Source: Silvanigrella paludirubra | GTDB taxonomy: Bacteria; Bdellovibrionota_B; Oligoflexia; Silvanigrellales; Silvanigrellaceae | Length of the DNA stretch: 35,205 nucleotides | Assembly: GCF_009208775.1 (NCBI RefSeq) | Contig: NZ_WFLM01000008.1 | Span: 1 to 35,205, forward strand | Direction of reading: 5' to 3' | In this document: one piece after another, positions 4,149 to 23,177 of the stretch | Layout: each line of letters opens with the position of its first letter | How positions within the stretch are numbered: the first letter of the stretch is position 1 | Made by a program: the position numbers and the translations under genes | Notes under the pieces: model-generated | The model's database searches: none | Seen by the model: only the letters and a program-made list of their open reading frames with translations | What the model was told of the DNA's origin: nothing

Positions 4149-4186
4149 AAATATATAAGAATTAGTAAATTAATCATTTTTTATGT

Positions 4187-4219
4187 AACATATTTTTTTA
4201 TAAAATATGTTGTTATAAT
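4187..4219 (+). promoter_or_regulatory. Extended -10 promoter preceded by an inverted repeat, upstream of pgi
   Basis: TGTTATAAT at 4211-4219 is a perfect extended -10 element (TG, one base, TATAAT), which can work without a good -35. Just upstream, AACATATTTT (4187-4196) and AAAATATGTT (4202-4211) form a perfect 10-bp inverted repeat with a 5-nt spacer. The right arm touches the TG. A protein bound there could occlude RNA polymerase, so the repeat may be an operator for the pgi operon. Confidence 0.5.
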
Positions 4220-9011: not shown

Positions 9012-10493
9012 ATGTGTCTTCAGGATAAATATAAATTATTTAAGCATTATTATTATTTTTTTAAGATGTTTTGCTTTTCAACAATTTTAATAATAACCTC
9101 TTTATCTAAATATACCCTAGCTGCAGAAATTCCAAAATTAACTCAAACTGCAATAATAATACCAGGATCAAATATACAAGCTTATAAATACGATTTATCG
9201 AATGGCCTAAAACTTATTGTTGTTCCAGACAAAAGAAACCCAATTGCTACAATCCATTTTATATTAGATGCGGGAAGCAATCGTGAAAGTAAAGGAACAA
9301 CGGGTTTAGCTCATTTTTTTGAACATATGATGTTTCGAAAAACCATTGGTACACCTGAAGGAAATTACGATAAAGTATTAAATTCTGTTGGTGGAAGCGG
9401 AAATGCGGGGACAAATGATTCCTTTGTTACCTTTTATTCTAGTTTTCCAGGCCCTGCATTAGAAACTATGCTAAAATTAGAGGCTGCTCGTTTTCAAAAT
9501 TTAGATATTACAGAACCTTATTATTCCATTGAAAAAGGCGCTGTTATATCTGAAAGAAAGCTTAGAGTTGAAAATGATCCTATGACACGTAGTAATGAAC
9601 TCATAAGAGCAATTACAGAACGAGACACACCTATGGAATGGATGACCATCGGTTCAAAAAAAGATGTTGAAAACATGAGTATTGATGCTGCTAAAATATT
9701 TTATAAAAATTTTTATACTCCAGATAATACATTAATGATTGTTGGTGGGCCTTTTGATCCCAAAAATGTTGCTACTTTAGTTCAAAAATATTTTGGTGAT
9801 TGGAAAGGAAAACTAAATATTCAGCATAACAAACTTCCTAGTGATTATTTTACAAGAGATCTTGGTAAAAGATTTATTTGTAGTGCTCCTGTATTTACAA
9901 AAAAATATAAAATTGTTTATCCATCTAATACCTCTAATATAAAATCCATAATTTATTCTTTAATTTTTCAATCACTTTTAGATGATAATATAAATGGAAC
10001 TTTTGAAAGAAGATTATTAAAAGAAAAACTAACTACAGACTTTAATTTTTATAAAGTTTACTGGCAAAATCAAAACAATCCACTAATCGTAAATTTTTCA
10101 TTATCCAAAGATCAAAAATTAGATCCAGTTTTAAAATTTTGGGAAAAAGGAATTGAAGAAGTTTTAAATAAACCAATTAGTGATAAAATAAGAAGACAAA
10201 TTTTAAAACAATTAGCAGTGTCTAATGCAGAAACGGCAGAAAAAATGACTGGACTTGTAAATACAATTCTTGATAATACTTTTTTCTTAAATGACTTTAA
10301 CTCGGCAGGACAAGCTGAAAAAATTGTGAAATCAATTACAAATGAAGCTTTTAGACAATGGGTAAAAGAAAATTTAGGTTTAAATAAATTTTATATAACT
10401 GGAGTTGTAACACCGAATGAAGCTCCTTCTTGTAATGATTTTTATGCTGAATATCAAAAAAATAAGGAAGCAAAAAATGTTCCCGCTAAATAA
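9012..10493 (+). CDS. M16 family zinc metallopeptidase, catalytic subunit (exported)
   Basis: A 493-residue M16 (insulinase/pitrilysin-type) peptidase with an N-terminal export signal (hydrophobic 19-32, likely cleavage after TLAA near residue 38). It carries the inverted zinc motif HFFEH (H101, E104, H105) and the distal Glu ligand in VISERK (E181), 76 residues on. A second M16 lobe follows. The ATG at 9012 has AAGGA 11 bases upstream. An in-frame ATG at 8976 would overlap the previous gene, and one at 9066 lacks an SD. The next gene encodes an M16 protein without the zinc motif. Such pairs work as heterodimers, the inactive subunit helping to form the substrate chamber, here probably in the periplasm degrading peptides. 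Two OppA-type peptide-binding proteins are encoded nearby. Confidence 0.92.
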   Translation: MCLQDKYKLFKHYYYFFKMFCFSTILIITSLSKYTLAAEIPKLTQTAIIIPGSNIQAYKYDLSNGLKLIVVPDKRNPIATIHFILDAGSNRESKGTTGLAHFFEHMMFRKTIGTPEGNYDKVLNSVGGSGNAGTNDSFVTFYSSFPGPALETMLKLEAARFQNLDITEPYYSIEKGAVISERKLRVENDPMTRSNELIRAITERDTPMEWMTIGSKKDVENMSIDAAKIFYKNFYTPDNTLMIVGGPFDPKNVATLVQKYFGDWKGKLNIQHNKLPSDYFTRDLGKRFICSAPVFTKKYKIVYPSNTSNIKSIIYSLIFQSLLDDNINGTFERRLLKEKLTTDFNFYKVYWQNQNNPLIVNFSLSKDQKLDPVLKFWEKGIEEVLNKPISDKIRRQILKQLAVSNAETAEKMTGLVNTILDNTFFLNDFNSAGQAEKIVKSITNEAFRQWVKENLGLNKFYITGVVTPNEAPSCNDFYAEYQKNKEAKNVPAK

Positions 10494-14409: not shown

Positions 14410-16008
14410 TTAGTTATTCTTTAATTTAATTTCAGAAACTAAAAAGCTTTCAATTCTATTTACCTTAAAGTCATATACATAAGGCTTCACTAGATAATGA
14501 TTTACAAGACTGAATATTGGAATAATAGGTAAATCTTCCATTAAAATTAGTGAAGCCTGGTGATTTAGTTCTTTTCTTTTAACAGGATCAATTTCATTCA
14601 TAATTTCACTTACAACATAATCATATTTTGGATTTTCATAATTAGAAATATTTAATTTATTTGAACTAGTGTGATTATTAAAAAAATCGTAGATATCATT
14701 TATATTTGCAACTGTCTCAATCTTAATCACTTGAAAATTTTCTGTCTTAGGGTTTTCTATAATCTTAAACCAATTTTTAAATTCAAATTCAGTTTGTACT
14801 CCTAAAATATTCCGCCAACAATTTGAAATATAATTTGCAACATTTCTATCTAATTCTGATTTATAATAACTTACTTTTATTTTTAAGGGAGTTTCTTTAG
14901 AAAATCCAGCTTCAAGATAAAGTTTTTTCGCCTCTTCAATTTGTTTTTCTCTAGTCCAATGATACCAATATGGATATGCTGGAAAGTCATTTTTTAATCC
15001 ATTAGGTAAAAAATGATAGAGAGGAATTTGTAAATTTTTATAAACAGTTCTATTTAATTCCTCTCTATCTATAGCAATACTTAAAGCCTGTCTCAATTTT
15101 TTATTATTAAAAGGTGCTAAAGAAGTATTAATATAATAAAAATAGCCTCCTAATATAGGAACTTTAATAATTTCGGATGAATGAATATTTATGACTTCTT
15201 TAAATCCTTCTATTTTTGCATCACTAATGATATCTATTTTTCCATTTATATATAATTTATATAGCTTATGAAAATCTGAAAAATAATAAAAATTTACTTT
15301 ATTTATAATATTTTTACTTTCATTCCAATAATATTTATTCTTAATTAAAGTTATTTTTTTTCCGTTTTTAAATTTTTTTAAGACATAACTTCCATTACTA
15401 ACAATATTTTGAGGTAAAATAAATTTTTCTCCATATTTTTCTACATTTTTTTTCTGAACAGGAAAGGTTACGGGTTCAGATAAACTTTCAAGTAAAATAG
15501 GAGTAGGTTTGGTTAAATATATTTCTAGTATGTTATTATTTATTGCTTTAACTCCGAGAGAAGAAGCTGGTTTTTTTCCCAATAATATTTCTTTTCCATT
15601 TTCAATAAATTCTGATAAATACGTATTTCTATGAAAAACATTTGCACTAAATATTCTTTGAATAGAATATACAAAATCATGTGCTGTTAGGTCAGAACCG
15701 TCTGACCATTTCATATTTTTTCTCAAATAAAAAGTGTAAGTTTTTCCATCTGAACTTAAATTCCACTTTTCAGCTGCTCCAGGAACTATTTTACCGGCAC
15801 CATTTAAAGTAACAAGACCTTCAAATATTTGTCTATTAATTAAAGAACATATTATTATTTGACATTTTTGAGGGTCTCCTATTTTTAAACTATAAAAAAA
15901 ACCAATATTTAATTCAGATTTATTGTTATTTAAATTATTTGAATTTATTATTGCATATGATGACATGTGAATAAGAAAAAATAAAAATAAGATAATTTTA
16001 AATTTCAT
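14410..16008 (-). CDS. oppA: Oligopeptide ABC transporter substrate-binding protein, OppA-like (copy 1)
   Basis: A 532-residue SBP_bac_5 protein with a Sec signal (MKFKIILFLFFLIHMSSYA). It has the family's N-terminal pattern IFEGLVTLNGAGKIVPGAAE and KMKWSDGSDLTAHDFVYSIQR-like segments (read in parts: WSDGSDLTAHDFVYS), then KLRQALSIAIDREEL in the second domain. It delivers short peptides to an Opp-type transporter, but no oppBCDF genes lie in the window. It is clearly paralogous to the product of 18893-20503, with which it shares LGVKAIN, the NNKKLRQALSIAIDRE run and the C-terminal NHxA/PIxPI region. The SD AGGAG lies 12 bases from the ATG, rather far. It could act as a chemotaxis or signalling receptor instead of a transport component. 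Confidence 0.9.
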   Translation of the reverse strand: MKFKIILFLFFLIHMSSYAIINSNNLNNNKSELNIGFFYSLKIGDPQKCQIIICSLINRQIFEGLVTLNGAGKIVPGAAEKWNLSSDGKTYTFYLRKNMKWSDGSDLTAHDFVYSIQRIFSANVFHRNTYLSEFIENGKEILLGKKPASSLGVKAINNNILEIYLTKPTPILLESLSEPVTFPVQKKNVEKYGEKFILPQNIVSNGSYVLKKFKNGKKITLIKNKYYWNESKNIINKVNFYYFSDFHKLYKLYINGKIDIISDAKIEGFKEVINIHSSEIIKVPILGGYFYYINTSLAPFNNKKLRQALSIAIDREELNRTVYKNLQIPLYHFLPNGLKNDFPAYPYWYHWTREKQIEEAKKLYLEAGFSKETPLKIKVSYYKSELDRNVANYISNCWRNILGVQTEFEFKNWFKIIENPKTENFQVIKIETVANINDIYDFFNNHTSSNKLNISNYENPKYDYVVSEIMNEIDPVKRKELNHQASLILMEDLPIIPIFSLVNHYLVKPYVYDFKVNRIESFLVSEIKLKNN

Positions 16009-16415: not shown

Positions 16416-16489
16416 CTAAAAATCATTGTTATTTTATAAAATCAAAATATTCTATATAAATAATTTCAATACTTTACAAGGTGAAATTG

Positions 16490-17470
16490 ATGACTCTAGA
16501 AACACCACAAACCACTAATGAATATGTAAACATAGCCTATTATAAATTCGTTGCAATAGATGATCCAAACCAACTTCGCAATGAGCTACTAACATGCTGT
16601 AATAATTTAAATATTAAAGGAACAATCTTACTTGCAAAAGAAGGAATAAACTCTTGTTTAGTAGGATCTGCCGAATCCATAGACTCTTTTATACAATTTA
16701 TGCATAACAAGCCCTTTTTTGCTGATATTGAATTCAAAAAAAGCTTCAGTTCCCATATACCATTCCGTAGAATGCTCGTAAAAGTAAAAAACGAAATCAT
16801 TCCTATGGGTATGGACTCCATCCAACCAGCACATTTTACAGGAAAATATGTAGAAGCACTCGAGTTAAAAAAATGGCTTGATGATGGTGAAGATGTTGTT
16901 ATCCTTGATACAAGAAACGATTATGAAGTAGAATTAGGTACATTTAAAAATGCTATCGATCCTAAATTAACTAAATTTCGTGACTTTCCTAAGTGGATTG
17001 AAGATAATTTTAACAATTATAAAAATAAAAAAGTTGTCACATTTTGTACCGGCGGTATTCGTTGTGAAAAAGCAACCGCATTTATGCGCCAAGAAGGCTT
17101 TGAAGAAGTTTATCAGCTACAAGGTGGTATCCTAAAGTATTTTGAAGAAACTCATAAAAAAGCGCCTCATGAAGACAATCACTATAATGGAGATTGTTTT
17201 GTATTTGACTATAGAGTTGCAGTAGATAAAGCATTAAATGAAACAAAATATGAAATTTGCTATTCTTGTTGGACTCCTTTAAATGAAAATGATTTAAAAA
17301 GCCCATTGTATAAAAAAGATATTTATTGCCCTCGTTGCTATGAAAGGCACAATCAAAAAGAGGCTCAACGCCAAAATTTAATTCGTGAAAACAATATGAA
17401 AGCTTTACAAGTTAGACAAGAAAGAGCCAAAAAAGTCAAAGAACAATGGGAAAAAGGTTTATTAAAATAA
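16490..17470 (+). CDS. trhO: tRNA uridine(34) hydroxylase TrhO (YceA rhodanese family)
   Basis: TrhO uses oxygen to hydroxylate uridine 34 in tRNA anticodons, the first step of the 5-methoxyuridine/5-carboxymethoxyuridine modification in Gram-negative bacteria. The 326-residue product has the N-terminal ferredoxin-like domain (KGTILLAKEGIN, 43-54; PFRRMLVKVK) and a rhodanese domain with VVILDTRNDYEVELG and the loop TFCTGGIRCEKA, whose first Cys (C186) is the catalytic one. A C-terminal Cys-containing extension (CYSCW...YCPRCYERH) looks like a small zinc ribbon. The start is the ATG at 16490, with AAGGTGAA as SD; a GTG at 16481 overlaps that SD. Confidence 0.93.
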   Translation: MTLETPQTTNEYVNIAYYKFVAIDDPNQLRNELLTCCNNLNIKGTILLAKEGINSCLVGSAESIDSFIQFMHNKPFFADIEFKKSFSSHIPFRRMLVKVKNEIIPMGMDSIQPAHFTGKYVEALELKKWLDDGEDVVILDTRNDYEVELGTFKNAIDPKLTKFRDFPKWIEDNFNNYKNKKVVTFCTGGIRCEKATAFMRQEGFEEVYQLQGGILKYFEETHKKAPHEDNHYNGDCFVFDYRVAVDKALNETKYEICYSCWTPLNENDLKSPLYKKDIYCPRCYERHNQKEAQRQNLIRENNMKALQVRQERAKKVKEQWEKGLLK

Positions 17471-17629: not shown

Positions 17630-18784
17630 TTGATAACAACCTATCATTACAGAATTAAAGATTCAGGAAAATCGGGAAGGGCTTTAAAAAAAATGTCCTC
17701 TTCTGTTAATTTTGTATGGAATTATTGCAAAAATACTCAAAAAGAAGCTTTAAAAAATAGAACAGTAAAAAAAATAATAGATCCTTTAAGTGGGAAAACA
17801 ATTTTTGTTCCTTATTTTTTCACAAAGTTTGAAATGAACTCTCTTGTTTCTGGAAGCTCCAAAGAACTTGGAATTCATTCTCAGACAATTCAGGCAATAT
17901 CAGAAGAATATACTACAAGAAGAAAACAATTTAAAAATATTCTTCGCTGGCGTGGAAAAAATTCTTTAGGTTGGATTCCATTTAAAGCAACAGCGATAAA
18001 AATAAATCAGGATAAAGTATCATACCATAAAAACACATTTCGATTTTGGAATACAAGAGAAATTCCAGATGATGCAATTATAAAATCTGGTTCTTTTGCG
18101 CAAGATAGCAGAGGAAGATGGTATTTAAATATCACTTTTGAAACTAAAACTAGTCAATACTCTAATGAAAATTTAATTGAAAATGGTGTTTTCATAGATT
18201 CAAATCATTTAGCAAAATGTTCTAATGGAATTAAATTTGATAGGCCTAAAATATCAATTAAGTATGTTAGAAAAATTAAAATTTCTAACAAAATAAAAAA
18301 GAATATTTTAATGAAAAAGTCAAAATTGAAACTAATAAAAAGAAAAGCTCCAAAAATTAAGCAAGAAAAAAATTTAAGAGCCAAATTAGAAAATATTAAG
18401 TTAGATCATTTTCATAAACAATCTACTAAAATAATCAATTTCTCTTCTGCTATTATAACGAATCAGATTACAGCAAAAAGAAAAAAAAGTTATAAAAATA
18501 ATCATTTTATATCATTTGGAGCTATTTCTAAACCTTTTCAAAACATGCTTTGCTACAAAGCCATAAGAGCTGGCAGAACATTTAAAGTAATTCCTGAAAA
18601 AGATCTTATTTGGGCGTTTTCAAAGTGTTGTTCATCACAACCACGGACCAATTTAAGGATAAGAGTGTGGAAATGCAGGGAATGTGGAAAAATAAATCAT
18701 TTTTCCACAAAGGCAGATAAAAATTTATTATCTGTTTACAAAAACCCACTCCGTATCGGGCATGATACGCCAAGAAGCATTTAA
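17630..18784 (+). CDS. TnpB homologue lacking all RuvC catalytic residues (TldR-like candidate)
   Basis: A 384-residue TnpB (IS200/IS605 OrfB) homologue with an intact frame from a TTG start (AAGGG about 9 bases upstream). The N-terminal wedge/REC region (KKMSSSVNFVWNYC, 20-33) and the segment SLGWIPFKA...FRFW...SGSFAQDSRGRWY (112-165) match the family well. Every catalytic position is changed. At RuvC-I the usual GIDLGLKDLA is GVFIDSNHLA, so the Asp becomes F188. At RuvC-II there is no Asp or Glu at all between residues 260 and 322. At RuvC-III the usual CGxxHDRDxNAA is CGKINHFSTKAD, so the Asp becomes S359. The zinc ribbon keeps C349/C352 but its first knuckle is CCSS instead of CxxC. No tnpA is present. 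It lies beside oppA. Either it is exapted as an RNA-guided DNA-binding protein (TldR-like) or it is an uninterrupted decaying transposon gene. Confidence 0.82.
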   Translation: MITTYHYRIKDSGKSGRALKKMSSSVNFVWNYCKNTQKEALKNRTVKKIIDPLSGKTIFVPYFFTKFEMNSLVSGSSKELGIHSQTIQAISEEYTTRRKQFKNILRWRGKNSLGWIPFKATAIKINQDKVSYHKNTFRFWNTREIPDDAIIKSGSFAQDSRGRWYLNITFETKTSQYSNENLIENGVFIDSNHLAKCSNGIKFDRPKISIKYVRKIKISNKIKKNILMKKSKLKLIKRKAPKIKQEKNLRAKLENIKLDHFHKQSTKIINFSSAIITNQITAKRKKSYKNNHFISFGAISKPFQNMLCYKAIRAGRTFKVIPEKDLIWAFSKCCSSQPRTNLRIRVWKCRECGKINHFSTKADKNLLSVYKNPLRIGHDTPRSI

Positions 18785-18856
18785 GTTACCTTAAATGAGA
18801 TGGAAACCATTTTATTTATATATTTTTAATATTTAAATAAAAAAGGGGATGTCAAG
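18752..18856 (+). ncRNA. Possible omega/guide-RNA scaffold at the 3' end of the TnpB-like gene
   Basis: CGTATC (18752-18757) and GATACG (18764-18769) form a 6-bp hairpin inside the last codons, G/C-rich for this genome. A second hairpin follows the stop: TAAAT + ATGG (18792-18803) pairs with CCAT + ATTTA (18807-18818) around an AAA loop. TnpB guide RNAs normally overlap the 3' end of the gene and run into the element's right end. TCAAG at 18852-18856 resembles an IS608-type right-end cleavage site, so a guide might begin at 18857. The boundaries are inferred. Confidence 0.3.
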
Positions 18857-18889
18857 TAACATAAAGAAAGTTAAATTGAAGTAACATAA
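18854..18889. repeat. 11-bp direct repeat between the TnpB-like gene and oppA
   Basis: AAGTAACATAA occurs at 18854-18864 and again at 18879-18889, a 25-bp period. A near-inverted copy, TTAAGTTAC, lies at 18781-18789. The repeats fill the 108-base gap between the TnpB-like stop and the 3' end of oppA copy 2. They could be transposon-end remnants or binding sites. Confidence 0.6.
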
Positions 18890-18892
18890 TTT

Positions 18893-20503
18893 TTAATTTA
18901 TTTTTCTCTCTTCTAAGTAAACACCTTTGAGTGAATATTTATCCATTGAATTTTTTTGAAACCCCACTACATATGGTTTTTTTAAAAAAGCAGAGGTATA
19001 ACTATAAATAGGTGCAATCGGAGCATCTTCAGTTATTATTTTGGAAGCATTTTCTAATAATTCTTTCCTTTTTTGAGGATTCATTTCTTGGAGAGCTTGG
19101 TTTACTATATTATCGTATTCAGGATTTTTATATTTGGGATCATTTGACGGATCAAACGAACGATAAGGAGCTAAAAAATCTGTAGCATCATTAATATTTG
19201 CTATATTTCCAAGACGTAAAACTTCAAAATCTCCGTTCGTTCTTTTATCTAACATTGTTTTCCACTCTTCATTTACCGTAACAACATTAACTCCTAAATT
19301 ATTTTTCCACATGGATGCAATAGAAGAAGCAATTTTTTTGTGAGCTTCATTTGTATTATATAATATATGAATGGTTAAGATATTTGAAGGAGAATACCCA
19401 GCTTCCCTATATAATTTTTTTGCTTCTTCAATTTGTTTTGCTCTAGGCCAATCTTGCCAATATAATTTATTTTGGGAATAATTTTTTAAACCGTAAGGAA
19501 TGAGATCATAAAGAGCTCTTTGTCCTTGGCCCATAACAGAGTTTGCAATGATTTCTCTATCTATTGCTATGCTTAATGCTTGACGCAATTTTTTATTATT
19601 TAAGGGTGCTTTTTGAGTATTAAAAATATAAACATAACTTGCTAAATAGGGATGATTGCTTAATTCTGAACCATATTTCGCTTTAATTTGCTTAAATTTA
19701 TTTATAGGTATTGTGCCAGTTATATCAAGTTGGCCTGTTTCATACATTGAAAATTCAGAGTTTTGATCGGTTATTGAATGAAAATTTACTTTATCAATTA
19801 ATATTTCTTTATTATTCCAATAAAGTGGATTTTTTTCTACTGTTACTTTATCTCCAAATTTTCGATAAATTAATTTATAGGGTCCATTTGAAACCAAATT
19901 ATTTACTTGAGTAAATGAATCTTTATATTTCTCTAAATTTGATATTTGAACAGGAGAAGTATTAGGAACTGTTAAATTTTCTAAAAAAGATGGAATTGGT
20001 TTAATTAATTCAATTTCTAAAGTAACATCATTAATAGCTTTCACACCAAGTGTTTGAGGTGTTTTTTTTCCTTCTGTAATTTCTTTTCCATTTATAACAA
20101 ACTCTAAAAGTGATGCTTGATCCGATGCGATTTTGGGATCCACTAACCTTTGAAAAGCAAAAACAAAATCTTTTGCCGTTAATTTTGTGCCATCAGACCA
20201 CTTCAAATCTTTTTTTAAAGTAAAAACATATTTTTTTCCATCCGCACTAATTTTCCAGCTTTCAGCTGCGGCAGGAATAATGTTTTCTTTTAAATCTGTC
20301 GTTACTAAGCCTTCAAAAAGCTGTCTAACAATAGCAGAACAAGTGGATTCATTACATTTTTGGGGGTCTAGAGTTTTCGGATCATCCAAATTTCCAATAT
20401 TTAGAACTTGGTTTTTGGCTAATTTTATATCTTTTGATGCCGCAAAAATTGAATTTGCCAAAAAGACGCTTGCCATAGATATAGCTATATTTCGAAGTAT
20501 CAT
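18893..20503 (-). CDS. oppA: Oligopeptide ABC transporter substrate-binding protein, OppA-like (copy 2)
   Basis: A 536-residue SBP_bac_5 protein with a Sec signal (MILRNIAISMASVFLANSIFA, cleavage before ASKD). Its length is close to E. coli OppA (543). Motifs include DPKTLDPQKC, VRQLFEGLVTTDLKENIIPA, WSDGTKLTAKDFVFAFQR, KLRQALSIAIDRE and EDAPIAPIYSY. It is more regular than copy 1, with better-conserved residues and a strong SD (AAGGAGG, 4 bases from ATG), so it is probably the main peptide receptor. No Opp permease or ATPase genes are nearby. It ends next to the TnpB-like gene, tail to tail. Any RNA-guided repression of it would have to act near 20504-20600. Confidence 0.94.
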   Translation of the reverse strand: MILRNIAISMASVFLANSIFAASKDIKLAKNQVLNIGNLDDPKTLDPQKCNESTCSAIVRQLFEGLVTTDLKENIIPAAAESWKISADGKKYVFTLKKDLKWSDGTKLTAKDFVFAFQRLVDPKIASDQASLLEFVINGKEITEGKKTPQTLGVKAINDVTLEIELIKPIPSFLENLTVPNTSPVQISNLEKYKDSFTQVNNLVSNGPYKLIYRKFGDKVTVEKNPLYWNNKEILIDKVNFHSITDQNSEFSMYETGQLDITGTIPINKFKQIKAKYGSELSNHPYLASYVYIFNTQKAPLNNKKLRQALSIAIDREIIANSVMGQGQRALYDLIPYGLKNYSQNKLYWQDWPRAKQIEEAKKLYREAGYSPSNILTIHILYNTNEAHKKIASSIASMWKNNLGVNVVTVNEEWKTMLDKRTNGDFEVLRLGNIANINDATDFLAPYRSFDPSNDPKYKNPEYDNIVNQALQEMNPQKRKELLENASKIITEDAPIAPIYSYTSAFLKKPYVVGFQKNSMDKYSLKGVYLEERKIN

Positions 20504-20852: not shown

Positions 20853-21623
20853 ATGATTGATTTTATTTGCATAAAAAATTTAGAAGTTGTATACCAAGTC
20901 AGAAAAATAACAAATCACACTAATTTTAAACAAAAATTAATTCATATTTTTAAATCAGAATATGAATACAGAACAATTTTAAATAATGTTAATTTAAATT
21001 TAAATAAGCCAGGAATTACTTCAATAGTTGGAAAAAATGGATCAGGTAAAACAACTCTAATAAAGTCAATAGTTGGAATTATTTCTGCAAAAAATGGAGT
21101 CATTTCTATTTTTGGAGAAAACATTTCAAAAAAACACTTTTTAAATAACATTGGAGTTATATTTAGTCAAAAAAGTTCATTATTTATGGAAAACTCGTTA
21201 ATTGAAAATTTACAAATGACTCTTTCTATATATAGAAAGAGTCATTCTATAAATAAAGAAATAAATGATTATATAAGTATCTTTGATTTAAATAAAATTA
21301 AAGATAAAGCTATAAAAACTTATTCTTTAGGCGAAAGAATGAAAGCTGAAATTGTAAATTTATTTTCATATAAACCTAAGCTTTTATTTTTAGATGAACC
21401 AACAATTGGATTAGATCTTCAATCTCAAAAATATGTAAGGGATATGCTAAAAAAATATATCAATGAAAATCAAGCTCATGTTCTTTTAACTTCTCATAAC
21501 TTAAAAGACATTCTAGAATTATCTGATGAAATATATTTATTAAATGATGGATTATTATCTAAAACCTCAATAATGAATTATAATAATGAAAATTTGGAAT
21601 ATTTAGAGAGAATTTTATGCTAA
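20853..21623 (+). CDS. ABC-2 type transporter ATP-binding protein
   Basis: A 256-residue cytoplasmic ABC ATPase. Walker A is GKNGSGKT (60-67), the Q-loop region is IFSQKSS (Q106), the signature is YSLGERMKAE (157-166, a divergent form of LSGGQ), Walker B is LLFLDEP (177-183), and a switch His is in LLTSHNLKD. The insertion before the first beta-strand pair (KLIHIFKSEYEYRTIL, 28-43) is typical of ATPases paired with PF06182/DUF990 permeases. The stop overlaps the first permease start (ATGCTAA), so the three genes are translationally coupled. The SD is weak (GATGGA, far from the ATG at 20853). A perfect 32-bp palindrome covers codons 121-132. It likely powers export of an unknown compound. Confidence 0.9.
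   Translation: MIDFICIKNLEVVYQVRKITNHTNFKQKLIHIFKSEYEYRTILNNVNLNLNKPGITSIVGKNGSGKTTLIKSIVGIISAKNGVISIFGENISKKHFLNNIGVIFSQKSSLFMENSLIENLQMTLSIYRKSHSINKEINDYISIFDLNKIKDKAIKTYSLGERMKAEIVNLFSYKPKLLFLDEPTIGLDLQSQKYVRDMLKKYINENQAHVLLTSHNLKDILELSDEIYLLNDGLLSKTSIMNYNNENLEYLERILC
21215..21246. repeat. 32-bp perfect palindrome inside the ABC ATPase gene
   Basis: The arm AATGACTCTTTCTATA (21215-21230) is followed immediately by its exact reverse complement (21231-21246). In RNA it gives a 14-bp stem with a UAUA loop. It encodes residues 121-132 of the ATPase, between the Q-loop and the signature motif, and the frame stays open. No T run follows on either strand, so it is not an ordinary terminator. Confidence 0.95.
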
Positions 21624-22393
21624 GTTACATCTTTTTTATAAAAAATTCTTTTATTAATTTTTATCGTAATAAATGGTCTTTTTTAGGTATAATTACATTC
21701 TTAGTAATTATGTATTCCATTGAAGGATTTTTTTGGTATGGATTTTATAATAACAGCATAAACAAATTATATTCTAAAAATAGCATTATATTATATATTA
21801 TGATTGCCTTAACCATGCACCAAATTGTTTCTTGTGTGGGTAAGCCCGATCAACTTTCCGAAGATATAGAAACAGGATCAATTGATTATTTTATTCTAAA
21901 ACCATTAAATTATATAAATATATTAGTTTCTATTCATATAGGTTATGTAATAGCTAGATTTTTAGCATTATCTCCAATCATCTTATTTATTTTATGTTTA
22001 AATTCAATTACTCATATATTCATAAAAGTAACTCTACTTTTTATATTTTCAGTATTATGCGGCATTTTAAATTGCGTTATAAATATATTTTTATCTTCAT
22101 TCACCTTTTTTTATAAGGATAGTTATGGTTTTGTCGCTTTAAAAGAAACATTATTTTGGATTTTATCAGGCTCATTAATTCCGCTCGATATTCTTCCTTC
22201 ATATATCCAGAATATAAATAAATATTTGCCTTTTGGATATATTATATTTTACCCTATTCAATATATTTTGAATAATAATGAAAACATATCATTCTTATTA
22301 TCTATGATACTTATTTGGATCCTATTTTTTCATTTTTTAATTAGCAAAATTTGGAGAATAGGTATAAAAAAATATCTTGCTTATGGTGGTTAA
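21617..22393 (+). CDS. ABC-2 family permease (PF06182/DUF990-like), subunit 1
   Basis: A 258-residue integral membrane protein with about six hydrophobic spans. Family markers are the cytoplasmic segment ETGSIDYFILKPLNYI (about 88-103) and the late motif LSGSLIPLDILPSYIQNI...LPFGYIIFYPIQ. Homologues form heterodimeric permeases with a second DUF990 protein and one ATPase, exporting poorly known substrates in ABC-2 systems. Its ATG lies inside the ATPase stop (7-base overlap), with GAGAG just upstream. The substrate is unknown. Confidence 0.85.
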   Translation: MLSYIFFIKNSFINFYRNKWSFLGIITFLVIMYSIEGFFWYGFYNNSINKLYSKNSIILYIMIALTMHQIVSCVGKPDQLSEDIETGSIDYFILKPLNYINILVSIHIGYVIARFLALSPIILFILCLNSITHIFIKVTLLFIFSVLCGILNCVINIFLSSFTFFYKDSYGFVALKETLFWILSGSLIPLDILPSYIQNINKYLPFGYIIFYPIQYILNNNENISFLLSMILIWILFFHFLISKIWRIGIKKYLAYGG

Positions 22394-22397
22394 GAAA

Positions 22398-23177
22398 ATG
22401 GGAAATATTTTTCATATATTTTTAAATTCATTAAAATTGAATATTTCATTTTTAATGAAAAGTAAAAGCAACTTCTATTTTATGTTTTTTTTGCAAATTT
22501 TTTATTATGTTGTTCAAGTTATATTTTGGTCAGGAATTTTTAATATAAGCAATTCCGATTTTATTAAAGAGCCTATTAAAATATACGGATTTTTAGTAAC
22601 TCTAGCATTCATTGATAATTTTTATCTTACTTTTTTTGGTTCTGGAAGTTTAAATATGCAAAATGAAATATTTAAACTTTCTTTAGATAATTATCTTATA
22701 AAGCCGATACATCCATTAATTTATTTTATTTTTTTCAAACCAAATTTAGGATATTTTCCAGGTTTTATTTTAAGTATCATATTTTTAATTTCATATTACT
22801 ATTACTTTAATATCAATTTATTTCAAATTTTTATTCATATTTTAAGTATGTTGACTGGGGTTTTTATATTAAATGCAATTTCATTTATTTATAGAATTTC
22901 ATGTTTTTGGACAAATTGTTTAGTGATGATCAAAAATAGCAATCCCAGTTTTAAAATTATGGTAAGACCTCTTGAATCTTTTGAAGGAAAATTAAGGTTA
23001 TTTTTATTATTTGTCTTTCCTGCACTATTTATAACTGGAGTTCCATCCTCTATTTTATACAATGATATTATGAAGTATTGGCTATTAATTGGATTCATAA
23101 TGAATATTTGGATTTGGATTTTGGTATATTTTTTATGGAAAAAAGGTGTAAAAAGGTATCTAATTATCTCTGTATAA
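22398..23177 (+). CDS. ABC-2 family permease (PF06182/DUF990-like), subunit 2
   Basis: A 259-residue membrane protein with about six spans. It has the paired-permease segment FKLSLDNYLIKPIHPLIYF near 92-110, equivalent to the IDYFILKPLN segment of subunit 1, but a more divergent C-terminal half (AGKTN-type loops are absent). The start is taken as the ATG at 22398, 4 bases after the previous stop, with GGTGG 8 bases upstream. In-frame starts at 22383 (ATG) and 22377 (TTG) lack an SD and would overlap subunit 1. It completes the exporter operon; no accessory or regulator gene follows, and it is convergent with the flavoprotein gene. Confidence 0.82.
   Translation: MGNIFHIFLNSLKLNISFLMKSKSNFYFMFFLQIFYYVVQVIFWSGIFNISNSDFIKEPIKIYGFLVTLAFIDNFYLTFFGSGSLNMQNEIFKLSLDNYLIKPIHPLIYFIFFKPNLGYFPGFILSIIFLISYYYYFNINLFQIFIHILSMLTGVFILNAISFIYRISCFWTNCLVMIKNSNPSFKIMVRPLESFEGKLRLFLLFVFPALFITGVPSSILYNDIMKYWLLIGFIMNIWIWILVYFLWKKGVKRYLIISV

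Follow-up and report, generated by a model that had tools for sequence, protein, structure and literature searches.

The window examined here, a stretch of 35,205 nucleotides from the Silvanigrella paludirubra genome (contig NZ_WFLM01000008.1), contains between two oppA paralogues, and tail to tail with one of them, a gene for a homologue of the transposon-encoded nuclease TnpB that lacks both RuvC aspartates. Judged by its sequence features, the gene looks like an independently evolved counterpart of TldR, the TnpB-like nuclease-dead repressors that include fliC- and csrA-associated groups (PMC13418256), and we put at roughly 0.77 the probability that it encodes a TnpB-derived, immobile, TldR-like RNA-guided DNA-binding regulator with a fixed guide. 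It would be an apparently independent case of a transposon nuclease recruited as an RNA-guided regulator, in bacteria distant from the known TldR hosts. An original prediction had described the gene as nuclease-dead and as possibly a separately evolved RNA-guided regulator of peptide uptake, and had proposed tests for purifying selection and for a conserved linkage to oppA. Closer analysis supported the loss of the nuclease, purifying selection, the conserved place beside oppA, the separate derivation and the presence of a guide RNA; RNA-guided repression is a probable role suggested by sequence, and the proposed control of peptide uptake was not supported.

Loss of the RuvC aspartates

The frame is intact, as predicted, and belongs to the TnpB family: its product matches NCBIfam NF040570 with 102.8 bits (cut-off 100) and also exceeds the cut-off of Pfam Cas12f1-like_TNB. 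Alignment shows that the Asp of the GID motif has become F188 and the last Asp of HDRD has become S359, both as originally proposed. These two columns are always Asp in 157 homologues from public genome and viral collections, in an aligned reference set and in the active copies of the genus, truncated sequences aside. Two further conserved acidic positions are gone from the window protein, the Asp of KSxxDA (now G297) and the first Asp of HDRD (now H357). The five acidic columns read D-D-E-x-D in every homologue long enough to judge; they read F-G-E-H-S in the window protein and F-R-N-P-I and F-R-N-S-M in its orthologues from two other species, G006 and G004, respectively. Among the sequences compared, the loss is confined to these three proteins, and the search for the same catalytic losses in related genomes, which the original prediction had called for, found them in both orthologues.

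The prediction had also read the RuvC-II region as a loss. Residues 260-322 indeed hold neither Asp nor Glu, but active relatives, which have VVGNV or VVGDV there, likewise lack a Glu at the canonical RuvC-II position, and the Glu that never varies within this subfamily, E323, is still present in the window protein (it is Asn in G004 and G006). We infer from its invariance that E323 is catalytic. An active nuclease working through the retained E323 was considered and rejected, both invariant aspartates being lost; because these two RuvC residues are absent, cleavage is not expected.

Among positions conserved in at least 90% of the active relatives, the window protein retains 25 of the 26 that fall within residues 1-180, but only 23 of the 42 after residue 181. 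An AlphaFold model of the window protein has high confidence for residues 1-170 and is poor across RuvC; its best structural matches are ISFba1 TnpB and ISDra2 TnpB, with a template modelling score of 0.72 (by target length) against the ISDra2 structure 8ex9, in which RuvC is unresolved.

Orthologues, selection and descent

The orthologues of G004 and G006 lie at the equivalent locus, and their proteins are 52% identical to the window protein over 381 aligned residues with zero internal gaps. In all three genomes the order is oppA1, trhO, the dead tnpB and, tail to tail with it, oppA2, with the fadox-like, rsgA and mutS2 genes beyond the oppA1/oppA2 neighborhood; the linkage to oppA, one of the tests originally proposed, is conserved in the three species. 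No tnpA was found among open reading frames of at least 100 amino acids around the dead tnpB. The ratio of nonsynonymous to synonymous substitution rates (dN/dS) between G004 and G006 is 0.095/0.79 = 0.12 for the whole gene; a value below 1 was another of the tests originally proposed. The first half (residues 1-185) gives 0.05 and the second (residues 186-381) 0.23. The corresponding value for oppA2, used for comparison, is 0.08. Like a TldR, then, the gene is immobile, keeps fixed non-transposon neighbors in three species and is under purifying selection.

In a phylogenetic tree the three dead proteins form a single clade (0.999) whose sisters are active copies from their own genus (1.000), in agreement with the separate derivation that had been proposed. 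The dead tnpB is absent from G001, G002, G003 and G007, and no relic of it was detected at the corresponding locus in any of the four. A concatenated tree built with FastTree groups the window genome (G000) with G003 and G007, not with G004 and G006; the gene therefore dates from early in the history of the genus, and its absence from G003 and G007 is probably due to loss, horizontal transfer being the alternative. The linkage to oppA traces to one origin and hence counts as a single event.

Apart from the window gene, the homologues within the genus form two groups, the dead single copies of G006 and G004 and active-looking insertion sequence (IS) copies, of which five are in G002 and one is in G007, with partial ones at contig ends in G001. 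Searches of phages, plasmids and viral contigs found just relatives of less than 40% identity. The active IS200/IS605 TnpBs of the genus (L004, L005, L008, L013, L017 and L020) resemble the dead protein in sequence (about 50% identity), and share with the dead system the stem-1 loop and a scaffold ending in TCAA. They differ in having kept the active site, in being multicopy in G002, in being accompanied by tnpA and/or IS ends and in using variable flanking DNA as the guide; the window gene has neither the full RuvC acidic set nor, at the search threshold, mobile multiple copies. The presence of such active sisters within one genus allows a clean before-and-after comparison, in which RuvC was lost and WED/REC, stem, pseudoknot and guide were kept.

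Guide RNA and candidate targets

A guide RNA had been predicted near 18740-18860, and a scaffold and guide are indeed found close to that place, the scaffold including a stem that overlaps the end of the coding sequence (Table 1). Stem 1 is CGTATC/GATACG in all three dead orthologues versus CCTATC/GATAGG in active copies, a compensatory swap of C-G to G-C. The loop of this stem pairs with the bases just ahead of the scaffold end, and does so across distant relatives (GGCAT/ATGTC, GACGT/ACGTC, GGCTT/AAGTC); in G004 and G006 a G-U pair of this pseudoknot has become G-C, an improvement to Watson-Crick pairing. Among 16 distinct sequences, 99.4% of the stem and pseudoknot cells pair, and covariation is 0.81, as against 0.20 in shuffled alignments (0/500) and less than 0.14 in slid controls. 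Rfam gave no relevant match. The omegaRNA of ISDra2 has a pseudoknot of this kind, formed between -5U to -3C and -103A to -105G (PMC10097598); in the dead system -3C pairs at -97.

The same GTAACATAA follows the scaffold end directly in all three species, the arrangement of scaffold and guide that characterizes TldRs. Active copies end in GATGTCAA and then pass into the target flank. A shared run of at least 12 nucleotides in this otherwise diverged intergenic region has a p of about 2e-4. Because active copies have variable flanking DNA at the same position, we regard the fixed guide as the strongest sign of the putative exaptation. We also note that AAGTAACATAA is present twice in the window (18854-18889), 25 bp apart, that the scaffold precedes the first copy alone, and that the second copy has AAGTAACATAATT in common with the guides of G004 and G006.

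We propose that an IS200/IS605-type TnpB of the genus lost its nuclease and was retained in the chromosome, no longer mobile, along with its omega (guide) RNA, and that the guide became fixed as 5'-GUAACAUAA. The protein, if expressed as we infer, would bind the guide RNA through its WED and RuvC surfaces, and its retained WED/REC half would recognize a short T-rich transposon-associated motif (TAM), probably TTTAT or TTTAC. A short R-loop would be opened at sites consisting of the TAM and GTAACATAA, and transcription would be repressed or blocked. The putative TAM is taken as TTTAY because the elements of the closest active relatives sit behind TTTAT (copies with tnpB only) or TTTAC (copies with tnpA and tnpB).

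Exact matches to TTTATGTAACATAA occur once in G004 and once in G006, and G006 also has a TTTAC version inside a protease gene. The sole sites of TTTAT plus GTAACATAA in these two genomes each lie 112 bp upstream of orthologous genes for a secreted ankyrin/pentapeptide-repeat protein (63-66% identity). The site falls within a 21-nucleotide invariant block, whereas the rest of the intergenic region is 64% identical between G004 and G006 and 5.5% of 14-mers in it are conserved by default. The match to the guide is 11 nucleotides in G004 and 12/13 in G006. These observations make the site a suggestive candidate target in the two species, at a chance expectation of about 5%. The ankyrin/pentapeptide-repeat gene is absent from the window genome, and the site also comes close to a palindrome (TTATGT-A-ACATAA), which could be recognized by a protein.

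Other sites were discarded as targets. The best intergenic TAM-plus-guide-like site of the window, upstream of pgi, is weak and is not conserved upstream of pgi in sister genomes. A TTACGTAACATAA site common to G004 and G006, about 17 kb off, is inside a 97%-identical protease gene and reflects coding conservation. The sequence TTAAGTAACATAA, which is the guide sequence preceded by TTAA, is identical in the window genome, G004 and G006, where it is coding sequence, at the 3' end of a LivM-like gene for a branched-chain amino-acid permease (L040, L038 and L059, at 1501). With 2.7% of 13-mers conserved in this gene and six starting hits, a shared TTAAGTAACATAA is expected about 1 time in 6, and it is probably due to coding conservation.

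In a studied TldR, guides of 6 nucleotides suffice and natural mismatches are tolerated (PMC13418256). The 9-nucleotide guide would therefore be adequate, yet many sites could be functional, and for this reason sequence by itself does not settle the target. The fixed guide makes a direct and cheap test possible.

Alternatives and related systems

Several findings count against an RNA-guided regulator. One Cys of the zinc finger is missing from the dead protein. Site searches of the window genome with TAM and guide yielded no convincing target. Seven sites there match TTTAYGTAACATAA with one mismatch or none, and none of them corresponds by orthology to any of the G004 and G006 sites examined, 10 of the G004/G006 entries being without a locus. 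Such sites are also rarer there than those of the reversed control pattern (7 versus 31), a scarcity that may reflect composition or avoidance.

Could the gene instead be a decaying IS200/IS605 relic whose frame is open by chance? Degenerate tnpB copies do exist in G003, G004 and G007, and the RuvC half has changed faster than the N-terminal one. A relic would not, however, be expected to show three syntenic orthologues without internal indels, purifying selection at a dS of 0.8, a guide RNA conserved with a compensatory change and a fixed guide. For the clade as a whole a pseudogene is ruled out by the intact orthologues, dN/dS and guide RNA, and we consider decay very improbable. A protein retained for a function now independent of the guide RNA, for instance simple binding of DNA or RNA, would account for the stronger selection on the N-terminal half, but conservation of the stem, the pseudoknot and the guide extends past the coding sequence, and such a function has only a slim chance. 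An exapted RNA-guided binder that represses no gene, and that instead occupies IS target sites or foreign DNA or guards against related transposons, would fit both the short, AT-rich guide and the failure to find an orthologous target gene across all three species. A single conserved guide fits a fixed target better than a general defense, though, and at the search threshold the dead tnpB is the sole copy of its IS family in the window genome; we think this explanation unlikely.

The remaining possibility is the one originally put forward, repression of the neighboring opp genes. A group of opp-linked (oppF-associated) TldRs exists, and the dead tnpB keeps its place between two oppA genes in each of the three species. 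Nevertheless, the guide has no match in either oppA promoter in the window, G004 or G006, where not even the 5-nucleotide seed GTAAC, with any flank, was found in the upstream regions, and oppA is also near trhO in G003 and G007, which lack the dead tnpB. Control of peptide uptake is accordingly given very little weight, and membership in the opp-linked group does not appear to be supported, the nearest relatives found being active TnpBs of the gene's own genus.

The reading we favor, a TldR-like regulator, rests on features common to TldRs generally: an inactivated RuvC, a retained N-terminal half and guide RNA, immobility, fixed neighbors and a guide of seed length. The window gene differs from them in its derivation from TnpBs of a Silvanigrella/Spirobacillus-group genus, in having no operon partner or target paralogue beside it (there is a candidate target only) and in the one RuvC Glu, E323, of the window copy. 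The ISDra2 TnpB-omegaRNA complex (PDB 8exa, 8ex9 and 8h1j; PMC10097598) resembles the dead system in the fold of the N-terminal half and in the pairing of -3C with the stem-1 loop (at -105 there, -97 here), and differs in being an active nuclease that uses the canonical E278 position, unused by the window's subfamily. More tentatively, and perhaps less likely true than not, the gene may represent a chromosomally fixed TldR lineage of this Daphnia-parasite and environmental genus (Silvanigrella/Spirobacillus group), whose guide was frozen across most of the depth of the genus while its regulon changed, and which in two species would control the ankyrin/pentapeptide-repeat gene in trans rather than its oppA neighbors.

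Table 1. Positions in the window of the dead tnpB, its guide RNA and nearby features
Feature	Position	Strand	Remarks
TAM+guide-like site, TTTAT+GTAACATAT	4180-4193	+	5' of pgi; best intergenic site in window; weak
oppA paralogue 1 (SBP_bac_5)	14410-16008	-	
trhO/UPF0176 rhodanese-domain gene	16481-17470	+	directly 5' of dead tnpB; neighbor kept in G004/G006
Nuclease-dead TnpB homologue (TldR-like)	17630-18784	+	384 amino acids; TTG start; from family matches, alignment and model
Guide-RNA stem 1, CGTATC-GGGCAT-GATACG	18752-18769	+	overlaps end of coding sequence
Loop GGCAT	18759-18763	+	pseudoknot 5' arm
ATGTC	18849-18853	+	pseudoknot 3' arm (ATGCC in G004/G006); within scaffold end GGGGATGTCAA (18845-18855)
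Conserved guide GTAACATAA	18856-18864	+	right after scaffold end; identical in G004/G006
Second GTAACATAA	18881-18889	+	25 bp past first; window only; tandem duplication; few bases from oppA2 stop codon
oppA paralogue 2 (SBP_bac_5)	18893-20503	-	tail to tail with dead tnpB; arrangement repeated in G004/G006

Between oppA2 and the fadox-like gene the window has a cassette for an ABC-2 type transporter (an ATPase and two permeases, 20853-23177) that is absent there in G004 and G006. In G006, the locus L031 (G006:C1:138119-141130) contains the start of a Cas9-like gene next to repeat units that read AYQSVYSRQVPA in frame and are probably a CRISPR array; upstream of this gene there is one TTATGTAACATA site. 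Finally, the IS right ends of L005 (G007:C3:577470-580334, at the end of the match) and L072 (about 9782-9900), from two unrelated bacteria, are broken after GATGT by sequences beginning GTGCG that look like a group II intron 5' end; the right ends of IS200/IS605 elements may serve as homes for such introns.
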